Source: Gaiellales bacterium
Lineage (GTDB): Bacteria > Actinomycetota > Thermoleophilia > Gaiellales > JAICJC01
Direction of reading: 5' to 3'
Length of the DNA: 64,000 bases
Assembly (NCBI GenBank): GCA_036273515.1
Contig: DASUHM010000023.1
Span: 1-64,000 of the forward strand
The translations under genes and the position numbers were made by a program. Positions 2,107 to 64,000 of the stretch are shown here, one piece after another. The first letter of the stretch is position 1. Every line of letters begins with the position of its first letter. The notes beneath the pieces are model-generated. The model saw only the letters and a list, made by a program, of their open reading frames with translations. It was not told the origin of the DNA and made no database searches.

Positions 2107-2445
2107 ATGGGCTATCGCGTCGTGGACGCCGCGGACATCTCCGCAGAGCCGGGGCCACACCCGGCGGCGAGCGCGTACGACAAGGGCATCGGCGCCGCGC
2201 TGGGCGTCGAGCGCTTCGGGATCTACCAGGTGGAGCTGCCGCCCGGCGCCGAGACGGTCGCGCACGACCACCGGGAGGACGGTGCCGAGGACGTGTACGC
2301 CGTTCTCCGCGGGAGCGGCGTCGTGATCGTCGACAGCACGGAGGTGCCCGTGCAGCCGGGCATGTTCATCGCCGTGGACAGAGGAAGCACCCGCCAGGTC
2401 CGCGCCGGCCCCGACGGCGTCACGTACATCGCGGTCTGCCGCTAG
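2107..2445 (+). CDS. Small single-domain cupin protein
   Basis: A 112-residue conserved beta-barrel (cupin) protein. The first cupin motif is visible as AHDHREDGAEDVYAVLRGSG, giving the two His and the downstream Glu that usually bind a metal, followed by VPVQPGMFIAV typical of the second motif region, although the second-motif His is replaced. Such stand-alone cupins bind small ligands or act as simple isomerases or dioxygenases; no substrate can be named. The ATG at 2107 lies 11 bp after the preceding stop, which supports cotranscription. The gene ends 7 bp before a dispersed palindromic repeat. Confidence 0.75.
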   Translation: MGYRVVDAADISAEPGPHPAASAYDKGIGAALGVERFGIYQVELPPGAETVAHDHREDGAEDVYAVLRGSGVVIVDSTEVPVQPGMFIAVDRGSTRQVRAGPDGVTYIAVCR

Positions 2446-2452
2446 ACGACGG

Positions 2453-2487
2453 GCGCACCAAAAGGGGTCTGACCCCGCCTGGTGCGC
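2453..2487. repeat. GGGGTCTGACCCC-core palindromic repeat, GCACCA-arm type
   Basis: Outer arms GCGCACCA and TGGTGCGC flank the core GGGGTCTGACCCC, so the whole element can fold as a hairpin. The inner 31 nt (2455-2485) match the copy at 61422-61452 with one mismatch, and match the copy at 37144-37174 in reverse complement. It sits 7 bp behind the cupin stop. It looks like a REP-type dispersed element. Confidence 0.85.
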
Positions 2488-2497
2488 TTAAACGGCT

Positions 2498-2524
2498 GAG
2501 GCCCGGAGCTGAGCTCCGGGCCTC
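2498..2524 (-). terminator. Strong hairpin between convergent cupin and groEL genes
   Basis: A 12-bp perfect GC-rich stem (GAGGCCCGGAGC with GCTCCGGGCCTC) around a 3-nt loop, 31 bp behind the groEL stop. No T-run follows on either strand, as is common in high-GC actinobacteria, so it is called a terminator from structure and position only. Confidence 0.6.
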
Positions 2525-2554
2525 TCACCGTGCGTATCGGGTGCTCCCGTGCCG

Positions 2555-4171
<1,617 letters not shown>

Positions 4172-4185
4172 TCAGTCCTCTCCTC

Positions 4186-4494
4186 CTACGCCTTCGCGGC
4201 GACCTTGCTGCTGACGACCTTGGCCAGGATGTCGGACTCGCGCAGGATGAGGTACTCGTCCCCCGACAGCTTGATCTCGGTGCCGCCATACTTCGAAAAG
4301 ATGATCTCGTCGCCCTTCTTCACGTCGAGCGCGACGAGCTTGCCGTCCTCGTAACGGCCGGGACCGACGGCGAGAACCTTGCCGCGCTGCGGCTTCTCCT
4401 TCGCCGTGTCAGGGAGGACGATCCCGCTGTAGGTGACCTCCTCCTCGTCCAGGACCTCGACGATCACGCGATCGCCCAGAGGCTTCAGATCCAT
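4186..4494 (-). CDS. groES: 10 kDa co-chaperonin GroES
   Basis: The lid of the GroEL cage. The 102-residue product begins [19 protein letters not shown], the conserved GroES N terminus, and contains the mobile loop region ([17 protein letters not shown]) and the [16 protein letters not shown]-terminal strand. I chose the ATG at 4494 rather than an in-frame upstream ATG because an AGGAGGG ribosome site precedes it and the extra residues have no family counterpart and would overlap the CIRCE operator. It is the first gene of the groESL operon. Confidence 0.97.
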
Positions 4495-4526
4495 GCAACC
4501 CTCCTCGGATATACCATGCTCAGAAC

Positions 4527-4555
4527 CCTGGCACTCTCGCATTGCGAGTGCCAGG
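4527..4555 (-). promoter_or_regulatory. CIRCE operator 1 (HrcA site) of groESL
   Basis: Perfect inverted repeat CCTGGCACTC - 9 nt - GAGTGCCAGG, matching the CIRCE pattern TTAGCACTC-N9-GAGTGCTAA in arm core and spacing. It lies 33 bp before the groES start. By family knowledge HrcA binds it and represses groESL until heat stress. hrcA itself is not in this window. Confidence 0.93.
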
Positions 4556-4584
4556 AGGCAGACTAGCAGGCCTGGCTCAGGCGT

Positions 4585-5748
4585 TCAACCAGAAGGTTGG
4601 CACTCTCTCACGGAGAGTGCCAGAGGACGCAGCGCAACAGCCACGACGAGCGACGCGATCACGAGCACCACATACGTGAGCCGGTCGGACGTCGACTGGG
4701 CCAGGGCGGCACCCGCGGCGGGGCCGATCAGGAAGCCTGCGCCCCACACCAGGTTGAGCAGCCCGAAGACGTTCGCGTGGGCGAGCGCGGCCCCGTCGGC
4801 GCCCTCCGCGCAGAGCGGGAACCCGACCGCGTACTGGCCGCTGATCGGGAGCGTCGCCGCCACGAACAGCACCGCCAGCACAAGGGCGGACGGCGCCGCT
4901 GCCAGCCCGGCGAGGACGGCCGCCATGCCGACGATCGACGCGAGGGCGATCGGGATCCCGCCGAAGCGGTCGAAGATGCGGCCGACGCCGTAGTTGGTGG
5001 CGCTGGCGAGCACGCCGGCCGTGGTCAGGACGACGGTGATCGCGACCGCCGAGTAGCCGTCGACCCCCAGGCGCAGCGGCACCAGCGTGTCGATCGTGCC
5101 GGAGACGACGGCAACGAGCAGCATCACCGAGAGCGCCGCCACCATCGTCCGGCTCCCGGCCACCGCGCGCACGAGCTCGCCGACCCCCACCGGCGCCAGG
5201 GCCGGCGGCCCGGCCGGCGCGCGGGCGACGACGACCGTCAGGACGACGGTCACGATCCCGAGCAGCACGAACGGCATGCGCAGCCCGTAGGCGCCGCCCA
5301 GGACACCGCCGATCACCGGCCCGACCAGCGTGCCGACGGTGGCGAACGACATCGCCGTCCCCAGCACGCGCCCGCGGGCGTTGGGCTCGCTCGCCTCCGA
5401 GAGCCAGGCCATGCCGGCCGTCCACGAGACGGCGGAGGAGAGGCCCTGGCCGGTGCGGGCCGCGAGCAGCGCCCAGAACCCGCCCGCGAACGCACAGCCG
5501 AAGGTCGCCAGGGCGAGCAGCGCCACGCCGAAGATCGTGAGGCCGCGGGCGCCGACGCGCGCGGCCAGGTAGCCGACGGGCACCGACCCGACCAGGACGG
5601 CGCCGCTGTAGATGCCGACGACGAGGCCGATCTCGGTCTTCGACAGGTGCAGGTCGCGGGCGTACCCCGGCAGGAGGGGCACGATCGCGAACATCAGGAG
5701 GGCGTCGAGGAACACCACCCAGTAGAGCGCACGCGGCTGCCGTCGCAT
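4585..5748 (-). CDS. Major facilitator superfamily transporter
   Basis: A 387-residue, twelve-helix secondary transporter in the cytoplasmic membrane, of the drug-efflux-like MFS type. Helix 1 begins at ALYWVVFLDALLMFAIVPLLPGYA; the loop 2-3 signature is seen as GYLAARVGARGL, and motif C-like glycines occur in FATVGTLVGPVIGGVLGG. I chose the ATG at 5748 because the 24 codons upstream are Arg-rich and unlike MFS N termini. The C-terminal codons overlap CIRCE operator 2, and transcription runs toward groESL. Substrate cannot be told from sequence. Confidence 0.88.
   Translation of the reverse strand: MRRQPRALYWVVFLDALLMFAIVPLLPGYARDLHLSKTEIGLVVGIYSGAVLVGSVPVGYLAARVGARGLTIFGVALLALATFGCAFAGGFWALLAARTGQGLSSAVSWTAGMAWLSEASEPNARGRVLGTAMSFATVGTLVGPVIGGVLGGAYGLRMPFVLLGIVTVVLTVVVARAPAGPPALAPVGVGELVRAVAGSRTMVAALSVMLLVAVVSGTIDTLVPLRLGVDGYSAVAITVVLTTAGVLASATNYGVGRIFDRFGGIPIALASIVGMAAVLAGLAAAPSALVLAVLFVAATLPISGQYAVGFPLCAEGADGAALAHANVFGLLNLVWGAGFLIGPAAGAALAQSTSDRLTYVVLVIASLVVAVALRPLALSVRECQPSG
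4598..4622 (-). promoter_or_regulatory. CIRCE operator 2, inside the 3' end of the MFS gene
   Basis: TGGCACTC - 9 nt - GAGTGCCA, again the exact CIRCE core and spacing, 69 bp upstream of the first element. It lies within the last codons of the transporter gene, so the transporter's C-terminal residues (LSVREC) are encoded by operator DNA. Two CIRCE copies before a chaperonin operon suggest tight HrcA control. Confidence 0.85.
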
Positions 5749-6898: not shown

Positions 6899-7543
6899 TC
6901 AGTCTTCGTCGTCCCAGACGGCCATCGCGACGGGCACGGTGCCCGGCTTGATCGGCTCGTCGCGGACGGCGCGGCGGGCGCTGCGAAGGGCGGAGCCGGC
7001 CCGCTCGACCAGCTCCTCGAACGACTCCGCGTGGGCCGGGCAGCTGGCGATGCCGACCGCAGCCTGCGGCGTCGAGCCGCCCTCGGTTCGCGCCCGGGCG
7101 ATGGCGCGCAGGACGCGCTCCGAGGCGACCGAGGCCGAGCGCGAGTCGGTCTCCGGCATGATCACGCCGAACTCGGTCGTGCCCACCCGGCAGGCGACGT
7201 CGAGCGCCCGGACGCTGCCGCCGATGGCGGCGCCGAGCGTGCGCATCGAGGCCTCGACCTCGTCGGCGGACACGTCGTCGACGCTCGCGAGCGCCAGCGC
7301 CACCGGCCGGTCGTAGGTGCGCGACCGCTCGATCTCGCGCGTCAGCGCCTCCACGAAGAAGCGGCTGTTCCAGAGCCCGGTGTCGTCGTCGCGGCGCTCG
7401 AGCAGCGTCGCCTCGGTGCGGGCGGTCTGCAGCTCGTCGGCGAGCGTGCGGGCACGCCGGTGCTCACGGACGGCGAACACGACGGCAGCGGCCAGCGCTG
7501 CCACCGCGACGACCAGGATGGGAAGGAGGATCGCGAGGCTCAC
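6899..7543 (-). CDS. Membrane-anchored degenerate GGDEF-domain protein
   Basis: A 214-residue protein: one N-terminal membrane helix (about residues 3-25), a short coiled linker, then a GGDEF-type domain starting at DDTGLWNSRFFVEAL, the usual D-x-LT-G-L-x-N-R entry motif. The signature GGDEF is replaced by GTTEF (residues 121-125), so diguanylate cyclase activity is unlikely; degenerate domains often act as c-di-GMP or protein-binding modules. It overlaps the upstream zinc-ribbon gene by 4 bp (GTGA), so the two are translationally coupled. Confidence 0.78.
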   Translation of the reverse strand: MSLAILLPILVVAVAALAAAVVFAVREHRRARTLADELQTARTEATLLERRDDDTGLWNSRFFVEALTREIERSRTYDRPVALALASVDDVSADEVEASMRTLGAAIGGSVRALDVACRVGTTEFGVIMPETDSRSASVASERVLRAIARARTEGGSTPQAAVGIASCPAHAESFEELVERAGSALRSARRAVRDEPIKPGTVPVAMAVWDDED

Positions 7544-7904: not shown

Positions 7905-9449
7905 ATGGCCGGCGAACCCGTCCGCCTGGCGGAGCTCCTGGGGGCGCTCTCGGCGATGAGCGACCTCGCCCGCGGCCACGCCGTCGACGAGGCCACCCGC
8001 TCGTGCCTGGTCGCCACGGGCCTGGCCCGTCGTCTGGGACTCGCCCCGCCCGAGGTCTCGGACGTCTACTACACCTCGCTCCTGCGGTCGGTCGGATGCA
8101 CCGCGACGTCGCACGAGATCTCGGTGCTGATGGGCGGCGACGACATCGCCGTCCGCGCCCGCGGCGACATGGTCGACATGTCCCGCCCCGGCGAGGCGGC
8201 GGCGTTCATCGCCGGGATGGGCCGCGGCCTTCCGCCCACCAGGCGCCTGCGCGCGGTGGCCGGGACGGCCGCGCTCGGCAAGCGGGCGGCGGCGGAGGGG
8301 GCCCACGCCGACTGCGAGGTCGGCGCCGCCATCGCCCGCCGGCTGCGCCTGCCGGCGACGGTGGAGGCGGCGCTGCTCGACGTGTTCGAGCGCTGGGACG
8401 GGCGCGGCGGCTACCGCGGCCTGGCCGGCGACGCGATCGCCGCGCCGGCACGGTTCGCCGCCGTCGGCCTGTGCGCGGCCATGTTCGCCGACGAGCCCCA
8501 GGGAGCCGCGGACGCCGTCCGGCGCTGGCGGGGGCGCGCCCTCGACCCCGAGCTGGCCGACGCGTTCCTGGCCTCGGCGGACGAGCTGCTCGCCGAGTCG
8601 GGCGTGGAGGATCCGTGGCTGGCGGCGGTCGGCTGCGAGCCGGAGCCGCGCCGGACGGTCGCCGCGGACGGTATCGACGCGCTCGCCCGCGCCTTCGCCG
8701 ACGCCGTCGACCTGAAGGCGCCGTTCCTGCACGGCCACTCGGCCGGGGTCGCCGACCTCTCGGCCCGGGCCGCGGCGCTGGCCGGCTGGGAAGAGGCGCG
8801 GGTGCGCGACCTGCGCCGGGCGGCGCTGCTGCACGACATCGGCCGGGCCGCGATCCCGACGGGCGTCTGGGAGAAGCCGGGCCCGCTCTCGATCGCCGAG
8901 TGGGAGCAGGTGCGCCTGCACCCCTACCACGGCGAGCGCATCCTCCTGCGGGCGCCGGCCCTCGCGCCGCTCGCGGCGACGGCGGGGATGCACCACGAGC
9001 GCACCGACGGCAGCGGGTATCACCGCGGCGTCGCGGGGACGGCCGTCGACGCACCGGCCCGGTTCCTGGCGGCCGCCGACGCGTTCCATGCGATGACGGA
9101 GCCACGCCCGCACCGGCCGGCGCTCACGTCGACTTCGGCGGCGGCGGCGCTGGCCGCGATGCCGCTCGACCGCGATGCCGTGGCCGCGGTGCTCGAGGCG
9201 TCCGGACAGCCTCGGCCGCGGCCGCCGGCCTGGCCGGGCGCGCTCACCGACCGCGAGGTCGAGGTGCTGCGCCTGCTGGCAGCGGGCCGGTCGAAGCGCG
9301 AGATCGCCGGCCGGCTGGTGCTCTCGCCGGCGACGGTGCACACGCACACCGTGCACATCTACGCCAAGGCGGGCGTGTCGACCCGCGCGGCCCTGGCGAT
9401 GTGGGCGATGGAGCACGATCTGGTCGGGCCGGGGCGCCATATCGACTGA
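7905..9449 (+). CDS. HD-GYP phosphodiesterase-like protein with C-terminal LuxR helix-turn-helix
   Basis: A 514-residue protein with two HD-GYP-like halves and a DNA-binding tail. The first half (residues 1-250) lacks the HD pair (LLRSVGC replaces LLHDIG). The second half carries LLHDIGRAAIP (about 308-318) and HHERTDGSGYHRG (about 363-375), the HD and GYP motifs of c-di-GMP phosphodiesterases. Residues 448-510 form a LuxR/GerE helix-turn-helix (LTDREVEVLRLLAAGRSKRE). This suggests a one-component regulator reading a nucleotide second messenger. TAGCAT (7893-7898) lies 6 nt before the ATG, so the transcript is probably leaderless. Confidence 0.85.
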   Translation: MAGEPVRLAELLGALSAMSDLARGHAVDEATRSCLVATGLARRLGLAPPEVSDVYYTSLLRSVGCTATSHEISVLMGGDDIAVRARGDMVDMSRPGEAAAFIAGMGRGLPPTRRLRAVAGTAALGKRAAAEGAHADCEVGAAIARRLRLPATVEAALLDVFERWDGRGGYRGLAGDAIAAPARFAAVGLCAAMFADEPQGAADAVRRWRGRALDPELADAFLASADELLAESGVEDPWLAAVGCEPEPRRTVAADGIDALARAFADAVDLKAPFLHGHSAGVADLSARAAALAGWEEARVRDLRRAALLHDIGRAAIPTGVWEKPGPLSIAEWEQVRLHPYHGERILLRAPALAPLAATAGMHHERTDGSGYHRGVAGTAVDAPARFLAAADAFHAMTEPRPHRPALTSTSAAAALAAMPLDRDAVAAVLEASGQPRPRPPAWPGALTDREVEVLRLLAAGRSKREIAGRLVLSPATVHTHTVHIYAKAGVSTRAALAMWAMEHDLVGPGRHID

Positions 9450-9523
9450 ACGGTCGATGCGGCGGCGAGGGCCGCCTCCGTACGGTGGGCCGGTCAACCG
9501 TTCCCCTCGTAAGGAGGCCCACC

Positions 9524-9925
9524 ATGATCGAGACCCAGAGCGCCGCCGAGGCGACCGTGCTGCGCGGCTACCAGGCGTTCGCGAGCGCGGACATGGAGAC
9601 GCTCGGCGAGCTCTTCCACCCCGACATCGTCTGGACGCACCACAACGACGACCGGTTCGGCGGCCCCAAGATCGGCTGGCCGGCGGTCGCGCAGTACTTC
9701 GCCGAGTCGGCGGAGCTCACGGCCGGAAACCTGGAGGCGCGCGTCGAGTCGACGACGGCGTCCGGCGAGCTGGTCGCGGTCGGCGCCCGCATGATCGGCA
9801 CCCGCCCGGACGGGCGCCGCTTCGACGATCCCCAGATGCATCTCTTCCGGCTGCGCGACGGCCGGGTCGTACAGGTCGAGCAGTACGTGGGCGATCCCCA
9901 GGCCGTGGAGGCGTTCTGGGCCTAG
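9524..9925 (+). CDS. SnoaL/NTF2-like protein
   Basis: A 133-residue cone-shaped alpha+beta barrel protein of the nuclear transport factor 2/SnoaL superfamily, with the typical start (VLRGYQAFASADMETLGELF), HPDIVWTHH and the closing RDGRVVQVEQYVGD strand. Members are small-molecule isomerases, hydrolases or ligand-binding proteins; this one has no assignable substrate. Unlike most lead genes here it has a full Shine-Dalgarno (AAGGAGG, 8 nt before the ATG). It stands 74 bp behind the HD-GYP/LuxR gene. Confidence 0.8.
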   Translation: MIETQSAAEATVLRGYQAFASADMETLGELFHPDIVWTHHNDDRFGGPKIGWPAVAQYFAESAELTAGNLEARVESTTASGELVAVGARMIGTRPDGRRFDDPQMHLFRLRDGRVVQVEQYVGDPQAVEAFWA

Positions 9926-9994
9926 ACACAAACCCCCGTCGGCAGCCTGACGTCCAGGCGCGCGGGGGCGGGGATCAGTCATCGACGCCGGATC

Positions 9995-10032
9995 GGGCGT
10001 GACGCGTTCGGGTGATGTGACGCGTCACGCCC
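9995..10032. promoter_or_regulatory. 12-bp inverted repeat at the oxoacid dehydrogenase promoter
   Basis: GGGCGTGACGCG - 14 nt - CGCGTCACGCCC, perfect arms. The right arm lies directly before a TACACT -10 hexamer (10039-10044) that is 10 nt from the E1-alpha ATG, so the palindrome spans the -35 zone and is well placed as an operator. A terminator for the preceding SnoaL-like gene is the alternative. Confidence 0.55.
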
Positions 10033-10054
10033 ACCGGATACACTGCGCAGAAGC

Positions 10055-11101
10055 ATGGCGGTAGCTCGCGAAGCCACGCCGGTCTCCTCGGCGGCGGACA
10101 TCAAGCAGGCGGATCTCGACCGCGAGGACCTTCTCAGCATCTACCGGAACATGCTGATCACGCGCGGCATCGAGGAGCGCGGCCACATCCTGTACCGCCA
10201 GGGCAAGATCCCCGGCAGCTTCTACACCGGCCGCGGCAACGAGGGCGCGGCGGTCGGCGTGGCGACGGCGATGCGGACGGACGACGTCGGCACCCCGATC
10301 CAGCGTGACATGGGCGTGCACGTGAGCCGCGGCACCGAGCCGTGGCGGATCTTCGCCCAGTACATGGGCCGCGCGGACGGCCTCGCCGCCGGCAAGGACG
10401 GCAACGTCCACATGGCCGACTTCCGGCTCGGCCTGATCGCGATGGTCAGCCACCTGCCGGCGCTGATGCCGGTCGCCGTCGGCTGCGCGCTCGCCTTCAA
10501 GATCCGGCGCGAGCCGCGGGTGGCGGTGACCTGGAGCGGCGACGGCGCCATGGCCCGCGGCGACGCCCACGAGGCGATGAACCTGGCCGGGGTCCACCGC
10601 CTGCCCGTCGTCTTCATCTGCGACAACAACCAGTACGCCTACTCGACCCCGAACCGGTCCGAGTTCGGCGTCGACCACCTCGCCGACCGCGCCGCCGCCT
10701 ACGGGTTCGAGGGCGTCGTGGTCGACGGCACCGACGTGCTCACCGTCTACCGCGAGGCCCATGCCGCCATCGAGCGGGCCCGCGCGGGCGGCGGGCCGAC
10801 GCTGCTCGAGCTCGTCACGCTGCGCATGGAGGGGCACGCGGTCCACGACGACGCCTTCTACGTCCCCCGCGAGCTGCTCGAGGCCTACGCCAAGAAGGAC
10901 CCGATCGAGCGCTACCGGCGCTGGCTGAAGGAGCAGAACGTGCTCGACGAGGTGCGCGACGACGAGATCAACGTCGAGGTGAAGAAGCTCCTGAACGACG
11001 CCATGAAGCGGGCCGAGGAGAGCCCGCTGCCCGAGCCGGCCGACCTGCTCACCGGCGTCTACGCGGAGCCCGAGGAGCTCGACACCCCCCATCACCGATA
11101 G
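10055..11101 (+). CDS. 2-oxoacid dehydrogenase E1 component, alpha subunit
   Basis: Thiamine-diphosphate-dependent decarboxylase subunit of a pyruvate or branched-chain 2-oxoacid dehydrogenase complex (cytosol). In 348 residues it shows the family order: RGIEERGHILYRQGKIPG, GRGNEGAAVG, and the ThDP/Mg motif GDGAMARGDAHEAMN followed by NN (about residues 162-192), then the phosphorylation-loop region YSTPN. It heads a tight operon with E1 beta, E2, lipB and lipA. The sequence resembles the PdhA/BkdA group; substrate preference cannot be decided here. The start follows TACACT at 10 nt. Confidence 0.92.
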   Translation: MAVAREATPVSSAADIKQADLDREDLLSIYRNMLITRGIEERGHILYRQGKIPGSFYTGRGNEGAAVGVATAMRTDDVGTPIQRDMGVHVSRGTEPWRIFAQYMGRADGLAAGKDGNVHMADFRLGLIAMVSHLPALMPVAVGCALAFKIRREPRVAVTWSGDGAMARGDAHEAMNLAGVHRLPVVFICDNNQYAYSTPNRSEFGVDHLADRAAAYGFEGVVVDGTDVLTVYREAHAAIERARAGGGPTLLELVTLRMEGHAVHDDAFYVPRELLEAYAKKDPIERYRRWLKEQNVLDEVRDDEINVEVKKLLNDAMKRAEESPLPEPADLLTGVYAEPEELDTPHHR

Positions 11102-62507: not shown

Positions 62508-63317
62508 ATGATCGATCTCGCGAGCATCCGCAACGCGTCGTTCACGCTCACCCCCACCGGATACAACCCGGAGGAGGTCGACCGCTTCCTGGCCGACCTC
62601 GCCGACCAGCTGGCCGAGGGCCTTGCCGTCGCCCCGGTGCCCGAGCCGCTGTACGAAGCACCCCAGACCTTCGAGGCCGCGCCGGCGCCCGTCGTCGAGC
62701 TGCCCGTCCCCGGCCGCGAGCCCGCCGATGTCGACGGCCTGCGCGAGGTGATCGAGCGCACCATCGGCGCGATGGACGCCTTCGTCGCCAACGAGCTGGC
62801 GTCGCTCAAGTCCGCCACCGAGGTCGAGACCGAGGAGCTCCTGGCCGAGCGCGAGCGCATGCTCGACGAGGCCGGCGAGGCTGCCCGCGCCCACCTCGAG
62901 GAGACGCGCACCCGCGCCGAGGCGATCCTGGCCGAGGCCCGCCGCGACGGCGAGGCCATGCGCGCCCGCTTCGACGGCGAGCTGCAGGTCGACCGCGAGC
63001 GCTTCGAGCAGTCGCTGGCCGACCGCGAGGCGCAGGCCCAGGCCCGCGCCGCCGAGATCCTCGCCGACGCCGAGCGGCGCCGCGAGGAGGCCGACGAGCT
63101 CGTCGAGAGCGCGAACCGCGTGCAGACGCAGATCCTGGCCTCGCTCGAAACGGCACGTGCCAGCCTGTCGCCGGCTGCTCCGGTCGCCCCGGCTGCCGCC
63201 GAGCCGGCCCACACGGCCGAGGCGCCGTCCTTCGAGGACGACCCGAGCGACGTCTTCGCCCCCGAGAAGGGCGACGACGCCGACCCGTTCGGCAACACGA
63301 GCGATGCCGCAGCTTGA
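62508..63317 (+). CDS. DivIVA/GpsB-like coiled-coil protein
   Basis: A 269-residue cytoskeletal-type protein. The N-terminal motif FTLTPTGYNPEEVDRFLADL matches the DivIVA membrane-curvature domain, followed by a Pro-rich spacer and a long charged coiled coil (about 95-215, heavy in Glu/Arg/Ala). The C-terminal tail is acidic and Pro/Ala-rich. Such proteins organise cell poles and wall growth in actinobacteria. SD GGAG precedes the ATG. It overlaps the next gene by 14 bp. Confidence 0.88.
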   Translation: MIDLASIRNASFTLTPTGYNPEEVDRFLADLADQLAEGLAVAPVPEPLYEAPQTFEAAPAPVVELPVPGREPADVDGLREVIERTIGAMDAFVANELASLKSATEVETEELLAERERMLDEAGEAARAHLEETRTRAEAILAEARRDGEAMRARFDGELQVDRERFEQSLADREAQAQARAAEILADAERRREEADELVESANRVQTQILASLETARASLSPAAPVAPAAAEPAHTAEAPSFEDDPSDVFAPEKGDDADPFGNTSDAAA

Positions 63318-64000
63318 TCAGCAGCTGCCCGCATTCCAGCTGACGTCGCCTCAGGGCGATCGGATCGCAGTCGACGACCTGGTCCAGGGCGGGCCGGTCG
63401 TCCTGGCTGCGATCGAGGCTGACGGTGCGGGCGACCCTCGGGCGGAGATGCTCGAGGACCTGGCGGAGCGGCTCGGCGCGGGCCGCACGCTGGTCGTCAT
63501 GTCCCCCGGCGCATCCTCGCTCGGCAGCAGCCTGGCCGCGTCGGGCGGCGCGACCTGGCTGCAGGACGCCGACGGCGAGGCGTTCGCCGCGCTCGGCCTG
63601 ACCTACAAGCGCATCGGCCGCACGAAGCGGCTGGGCGGCCTCTTCGTGATCGACCCCGAGCGGCGGCTGCGGTTCGCGTTCATGAGCGCCGACCGCGAGG
63701 CCTGGATCCCCGGCTCCTTCGTGCTCTCGCGGCTCGACCGCCTGGGCGCGGCGGCGCCCGCCCCTGCGGGGGCCGAGGCCGTCGACGTCCGGGAGGACGC
63801 CGCCGAGCCGGAGCTCGAGCGCCTCGTCGCCGCGGTAGCCCGGCGGATGGGCCTCCGCGAAACGGAGCTGTCCGACCTCGCGACCGCGACGCGCGTGCGC
63901 GACATCGGCATGGCCACCGTGCCGGACGAGATCATCACCAAGGACGGGCCCCTCGACGACCAGGAGTGGGCCGTCATCCGCATGCACCCCGAGCGCTCCG
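63304..64000 (+). CDS. Redoxin-like domain fused to degenerate HD-GYP domain (partial, 3' end missing)
   Basis: The 232 visible residues start with a peroxiredoxin/AhpC-TSA-like domain (about 1-150: PAFQLTSPQGDRIAVDDL, ATWLQDADGEAFAALGLTYK, GLFVIDPERRLRFAFMSADR) and run into an HD-GYP-type domain (from about 165) reading ATRVRDIGMATVPDEIITKDG and EWAVIRMHPE. The redoxin part has no cysteine at all, so it cannot be a peroxidase, and the HD pair is RD (199-200), so the visible HD metal site is altered. The gene continues past the window. Coupled to divIVA, which suggests a polar or cell-cycle signalling role. Confidence 0.78.
   Translation, partial: MPQLDQQLPAFQLTSPQGDRIAVDDLVQGGPVVLAAIEADGAGDPRAEMLEDLAERLGAGRTLVVMSPGASSLGSSLAASGGATWLQDADGEAFAALGLTYKRIGRTKRLGGLFVIDPERRLRFAFMSADREAWIPGSFVLSRLDRLGAAAPAPAGAEAVDVREDAAEPELERLVAAVARRMGLRETELSDLATATRVRDIGMATVPDEIITKDGPLDDQEWAVIRMHPERS

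Follow-up and report, generated by a model that had tools for sequence, protein, structure and literature searches.

The window, by which we mean the whole 64,000-nucleotide stretch analysed, corresponds to the initial 64 kb of contig C23 in a genome of 4.07 Mb and 98 contigs. It ends inside a gene that encodes two fused domains and overlaps the gene upstream of it. The features of this gene pair are the following:

62508..63317, plus strand: DivIVA-motif protein of 269 aa, the upstream partner (Pfam DivIVA 1.2e-6 at aa 7-36; TIGR03544 DivI1A 2.5e-8)
63304..63317, plus strand: overlap of the two genes by 14 bases, read from the sequence (14, 14, 14, 29-35 and 29 bases in the five genomes of the family)
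63304-64302 of the contig (L009:2304-3302), plus strand: fusion gene, ATG at 63304, 332 aa
63304..63753 (aa 1-150), plus strand: Cys-free redoxin-like domain (profile, alignment and low-confidence model evidence)
63424..63441 (aa 41-46, GAGDPR), plus strand: peroxiredoxin active-site position by alignments, PxxxTxxC in Cys-containing relatives
63796..64000, plus strand: first part of the HD-GYP domain (HD_5, 9e-30), in a gene that runs to contig position 64302 (L009:3302)
63898..63912, plus strand: RDIGM (aa 199-203) in place of HDxGK, with R and M invariant in all five orthologs
63985..63987, plus strand: H228, a canonical HD-GYP His, retained by alignment

The fusion gene is cut by the window end after aa 232 of 332; its missing 3' end was recovered from the contig, where the reading frame continues to position 64302. 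The complete gene bears out the sequence-only reading, which had described a Cys-free redoxin domain fused to an altered HD-GYP domain: the whole 332-aa protein contains no Cys, and its HD_5/HD-GYP domain spans approximately aa 165-319 (Pfam HD_5 at aa 171-317, E 9e-30, 104 bits against a gathering score of 27.2).

Distribution and context of the gene pair

The family was represented by five genomes, all draft assemblies, from two genera (three genomes in g1 and two in g2). Each contains an open and full-length ortholog of the fusion gene, and the domain order read from the window recurs in all of them. At E<=1e-5, all five family genomes had the redoxin-like domain, and 394 further genomes of the class yielded no match. 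A search with the HD part returned the five orthologs at 55-100% identity, and the next matches, to other HD-GYP domains, dropped to about 45% or below. The DivIVA-motif gene, likewise present in every family genome and not found at E<=1e-10 in 124 further genomes of the order, lies directly upstream of the fusion gene in all five and overlaps it by 14-35 bases. In genome G150, contig C36 starts inside this gene, and the missing start is probably the piece on contig C34. For the close pair G000-G283, the dN/dS ratio (NG86) is 0.29 in the redoxin part and 0.18 in the HD part, which indicates selection and not decay; the values at longer distances, 0.27-0.81, are unreliable in such GC-rich genes. 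The anatomy of the locus, its conservation, the loss of catalytic residues, the gene overlap and the co-distribution of the two genes are direct observations.

No obvious Shine-Dalgarno sequence precedes the ATG at 63304, which together with the overlap makes translational coupling likely; the overlap also suggests that the two products form a common complex. A search around the gene pair for sigma-70-like promoters and intrinsic terminators gave none. The partner protein has a single N-terminal DivIVA motif of about 30 aa followed by what, on inspection by eye, resembles a coiled coil. It shares this motif with DivIVA/Wag31 and DivI1A-motif proteins (TIGR03544, 2.5e-8), but it reaches only 22.5 bits against the Wag31 model, for which the cut-off is 260, and the bona fide DivIVA of the genome (101 bits) is encoded on contig C78. 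Thus, we rejected the assignment of the partner as a true DivIVA orthologue. The coupling to divIVA claimed from the window stands as an overlap with a DivIVA-motif gene in five of five genomes, and not as a coupling to the DivIVA gene proper; the link to polar growth is not supported, and a polar-growth role was considered and not adopted.

Some features of the neighborhood vary among the genomes. The partner has two DivIVA motifs in tandem in genus g2 (L019:6603-7748 and L095) and one in genus g1, and Pfam counts three DivIVA stretches in the G215 partner. Genes that were named rarA-like and agmatinase-like by eye from sequence adjoin the gene pair in G000 and G215. Downstream of the fusion gene, at L009:3300-3801 (contig about 64300-64801), the sequence may contain what is left of a frameshifted EamA-type transporter gene, and in G213 a longer EamA-looking reading frame occupies the same place; both were recognized by eye.

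The redoxin-like domain and a second locus in genus g2

The N-terminal domain matches Pfam AhpC-TSA over the full length of the profile (aa 5-124 against positions 2-123 of 124), although it stays under the gathering score of 26 bits, with 19.1 bits (E 0.0013) when the full protein is scanned and 22.1 bits (E 1.5e-4) when the domain is scanned by itself; AhpC-TSA is matched at E<=1 by four of the seven redoxin-domain family members. A profile of the seven domains was aligned by hhalign with the redoxins of the same genome (95%, score 50) and with a set of Prx relatives (98%, score 82), the latter score being inflated because the set had been picked by the same profile. The controls gave a maximum of 19 for column shuffles, which were run against the Prx set and not against the genome's own redoxins, and 14 for the HD family. 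In a search of 397 genomes of the phylum, this profile matched proteins in 17 genomes besides its own; all were peroxiredoxin-like, and nearly all were Cys- or Sec-containing and BCP/PrxQ-like. The PDB sequence match is 5epf, a Prx of M. tuberculosis (E 4.8e-4). Such profile evidence supports a redoxin fold for aa 1-150. The AlphaFold2 models, made from two near-identical sequences, the protein and a single relative, are poor (pLDDT 39 for the whole protein and 46 for the redoxin part). In Foldseek, the redoxin-part model ranked 5epf first at low confidence (E 1.4e-3), and of the 37 matches of the full model at E<=1e-3, most carry a peroxiredoxin or thioredoxin-like annotation and a few are uncharacterised; no HD fold was among the matches listed for this low-confidence full model. 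These models point, with low confidence, to a peroxiredoxin fold, the same way as the profiles.

In comparison with BCP/PrxQ-type peroxiredoxins (M. tuberculosis BcpB, 5EPF), aa ~5-130 align end to end, and the likeness in fold rests on the low-confidence model; the fusion protein differs in having neither PxxxTxxC nor any Cys. The column of the peroxidatic Cys is occupied by D, G or E in all seven domains in one alignment and falls into a two-residue gap in a second one. The peroxidatic Cys motif is absent from all five family orthologs, and where Cys occurs elsewhere in them it is scattered, with no position in common.

The searches also returned other redoxin-like proteins. In three other actinobacterial loci (L131, L138 and L140) the matched stretch has no Cys; the tail of the L131 protein is charged and of low complexity, and no HD-GYP or DivIVA-like neighbor was seen by eye in the reading-frame lists around L131 and L138. 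Two AhpC-TSA-like reading frames have an in-frame TGA at the expected redox Cys, namely C26:10051-10425 of G000 (L082; ..GT-U-RTQ..) and L128 in G639 (MTPG-U-TRE), and are candidate selenoprotein peroxiredoxins.

Both g2 genomes encode a DUF5317-MFS membrane protein that ends in a related redoxin-like domain; its gene lies just downstream of that for an HD-GYP protein:

L022:5740-8049 and 8051-10339: locus of the DUF5317-MFS-redoxin-like fusion with its HD-GYP neighbor
L023:55-2367 and 2368-4623: the same pair of genes

The HD-GYP protein of this locus in G215 has HD_5 and a weak GGDEF match. This second locus is independent support for a tie between the redoxin-like domain and HD-GYP proteins. 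No second redoxin-like copy was found in the three g1 genomes (E<=1e-3), and nothing was found on DUF5317 in the literature.

The metal site and the pocket of the HD-GYP domain

For comparison, the HD-GYP domain was aligned with 25 such domains from the class and with the remaining 15 of its own genome, and positions conserved in at least 85% of 38 other HD-GYP domains served as the reference. All five orthologs have changes at 8 of the 39 conserved positions, including three of the six metal-ligand positions and the lysine of GK; the enrichment of total losses at metal ligands is not significant alone (3/6 versus 5/33, P=0.09). The replaced ligand positions are the early His, the His of HD, which is RD, and aD, which is E; GK has become GM. 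The replacement residues R199, M203 and E281 are fixed in the five orthologs across the two genera. The RD read from the window (R199, D200) was thus confirmed, as RDIG or RDLG in every ortholog; none of the five retains the peroxidatic Cys or HD. The metal-site residues D200, H228 and H253 are kept in five of five, as is the GYP loop, DG[ST]GYP, together with IP and R275. As judged from the alignment, the protein has the domain and the GYP loop of an HD-GYP phosphodiesterase and lacks the full set of metal ligands.

Among the 16 HD-GYP domains of the genome, HD is lost only here; the other 15 keep H, with GK or GR. The first His of HHE is C, S or T in many HD-GYP domains of the genome that keep HD, and therefore its loss is not diagnostic; for the same reason the S in SHE was rejected as a mark of inactivity. 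In the tree of HD-GYP domains, the five orthologs form one clade with support 1.0. Partial changes are also seen in other HD-GYP domains of the class (L053, L056, L058, L065 and L068 are examples), so decay of this domain recurs there.

A precedent for a receptor derived from an HD-GYP domain is DvhD of Desulfovibrio vulgaris (PDB 9RBZ and 9RC0), which binds c-di-GMP with SQ at HD and MN at HH, metal-free and without hydrolysis (PMC13090378). DvhD matches aa 172-328 of the fusion protein in phmmer (E 1e-17). The two proteins are alike in that metal ligands including HD are replaced and several nucleotide-facing positions are the same or similar. At the DvhD contact residues Y621, M646, R650 and Y652, taken from PMC13090378 and placed by hand on the alignment, the orthologs have Y (5/5), M (4/5, I once), R (5/5) and F or Y (5/5), whereas K582 and E668 are unmatched by the same placement. 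Since ordinary HD-GYP domains conserve these pocket residues too, they are weak evidence for binding. The differences are that (i) the HD position is SQ in DvhD and RD in the fusion protein, (ii) DvhD has dCache, TM and PAS parts in place of a redoxin-like domain and a DivIVA-motif partner, and (iii) DvhD is modelled as a controller of a periplasmic protease. The phosphodiesterases PmGH (4MCW) and V-cGAP3 (5Z7C) belong to the same family with an intact GYP (PDB sequence matches of the HD part at E 4e-12 for 4mcw and 8e-20 for 5z7c); compared with them, the fusion protein is without the early His, the His of HD and the Asp of the last motif.

Degenerate HD-GYP and HD-GYP-LuxR proteins are already known in actinobacteria from Streptomyces HdgB and SLUN_31535 (PMC6205966); the degenerate Streptomyces proteins are without the GYP residues, whereas the fusion protein keeps GYP and loses HD. 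The HD-GYP-LuxR type resembles in architecture the dual-HD protein at window positions 7905-9449 (plus strand; HD-[HD-GYP]-LuxR), whose C-terminal HD-GYP domain keeps the early His, HD, H, HH and D, with GR for GK and GYH for GYP. Contigs C11 and C90 also encode proteins that match HD_5 a second time, at the N-terminus. The GGDEF protein at 6899-7543 (minus strand) is degenerate (GTTEF). The sequence-only reading had combined the proteins at 6.9-9.4 kb with the fusion protein into a set of catalytically silent readers; the degenerate GGDEF protein stands, but the set does not, given that the metal ligands of the dual-HD protein are in place, HD is present in each of the other 15 HD-GYP domains, and 20 of the 25 GGDEF domains of the genome are intact (five are without an exact GG[DE]EF). 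With 20 intact GGDEF and 15 HD-keeping HD-GYP domains, turnover of c-di-GMP in this organism is likely.

Possible roles of the fusion protein

By its sequence, the fusion is a conserved protein composed of two dead-looking enzyme halves and found in one family of uncultured actinobacteria. We tentatively favor, at somewhat short of an even chance, the interpretation that it is a pseudoenzyme specific to this lineage, which in a probable complex with its DivIVA-motif partner reads a cyclic dinucleotide (c-di-GMP being the most likely one). The proposed mechanism has four elements: (i) the HD-GYP domain, having lost a part of the hydrolytic metal center and kept the GYP loop and nucleotide-facing positions, would bind the nucleotide and not degrade it, (ii) the Cys-free redoxin-like domain would serve as a redox-inert module for interaction or dimerisation, (iii) the fusion protein would be co-produced with the DivIVA-motif protein, probably in a complex, and (iv) the DivIVA-motif scaffold would be altered in its state or location once the nucleotide is bound. 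We infer the loss of activity, nucleotide binding, complex formation and output alike. The partly lost metal site, the kept GYP loop and the 20 intact GGDEF domains fit a receptor.

Both altered active sites, together with the overlapping and co-distributed partner gene, would also be expected of a pure scaffold, in which the two domains would be folded and bind no small molecule, the fusion protein being a structural partner of the DivIVA-motif protein. A scaffold, however, has no need of a GYP loop and pocket, which are essentially unchanged in all five orthologs despite the three lost metal ligands, and we regard this explanation as rather unlikely. An altered enzyme, in which a divergent metal site of D200, H228, H253 and E281 would hydrolyze a cyclic dinucleotide or another phosphoester, could draw on the three ligands kept in five of five and on the chemical similarity of E to the D that it replaces at 281; with the early His and the His of HD lost, the latter to Arg in every ortholog, and with DvhD inactive after comparable losses, it appears quite improbable. 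That the redoxin-like domain is present in all orthologs, and that the sister genus has a related domain on the DUF5317-MFS protein adjoining an HD-GYP protein, might indicate a redox or stress sensor that works by a non-thiol route and relays its signal to the HD-GYP part, but there is no Cys, Sec or other recognizable redox center at the peroxidatic position and no Cys in common elsewhere, which leaves such sensing very improbable. A gene drifting towards loss with no current function, as two altered active sites and a small number of family genomes in draft might suggest, is scarcely credible and already disfavored by the full-length open frames in five of five, the dN/dS of 0.18-0.29 in the close pair and the same replacement residues across two genera.

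Neither a fusion of redoxin and HD-GYP domains nor a DivIVA-HD-GYP system was found in the titles, abstracts and passages of the literature that were searched. To our knowledge, c-di-GMP receptors other than RsiG are few in Thermoleophilia and Rubrobacteria. RsiG itself is a c-di-GMP-binding anti-sigma factor in these two groups (PMC8325347).

The fusion protein is a clear example of two enzyme domains being retained although both active sites have changed. If the predicted receptor does bind a nucleotide, it would be an HD-GYP domain turned receptor through a metal-site replacement that differs from that of DvhD, with a direct handle on a DivIVA-motif scaffold. In its fullest form, which we consider unlikely though worth stating, the proposal would amount to a new class of cytoplasmic cyclic-dinucleotide receptor, made from two dead enzymes and switching a DivIVA-motif scaffold, that would tie c-di-GMP directly to cell organisation in deep-branching actinobacteria.
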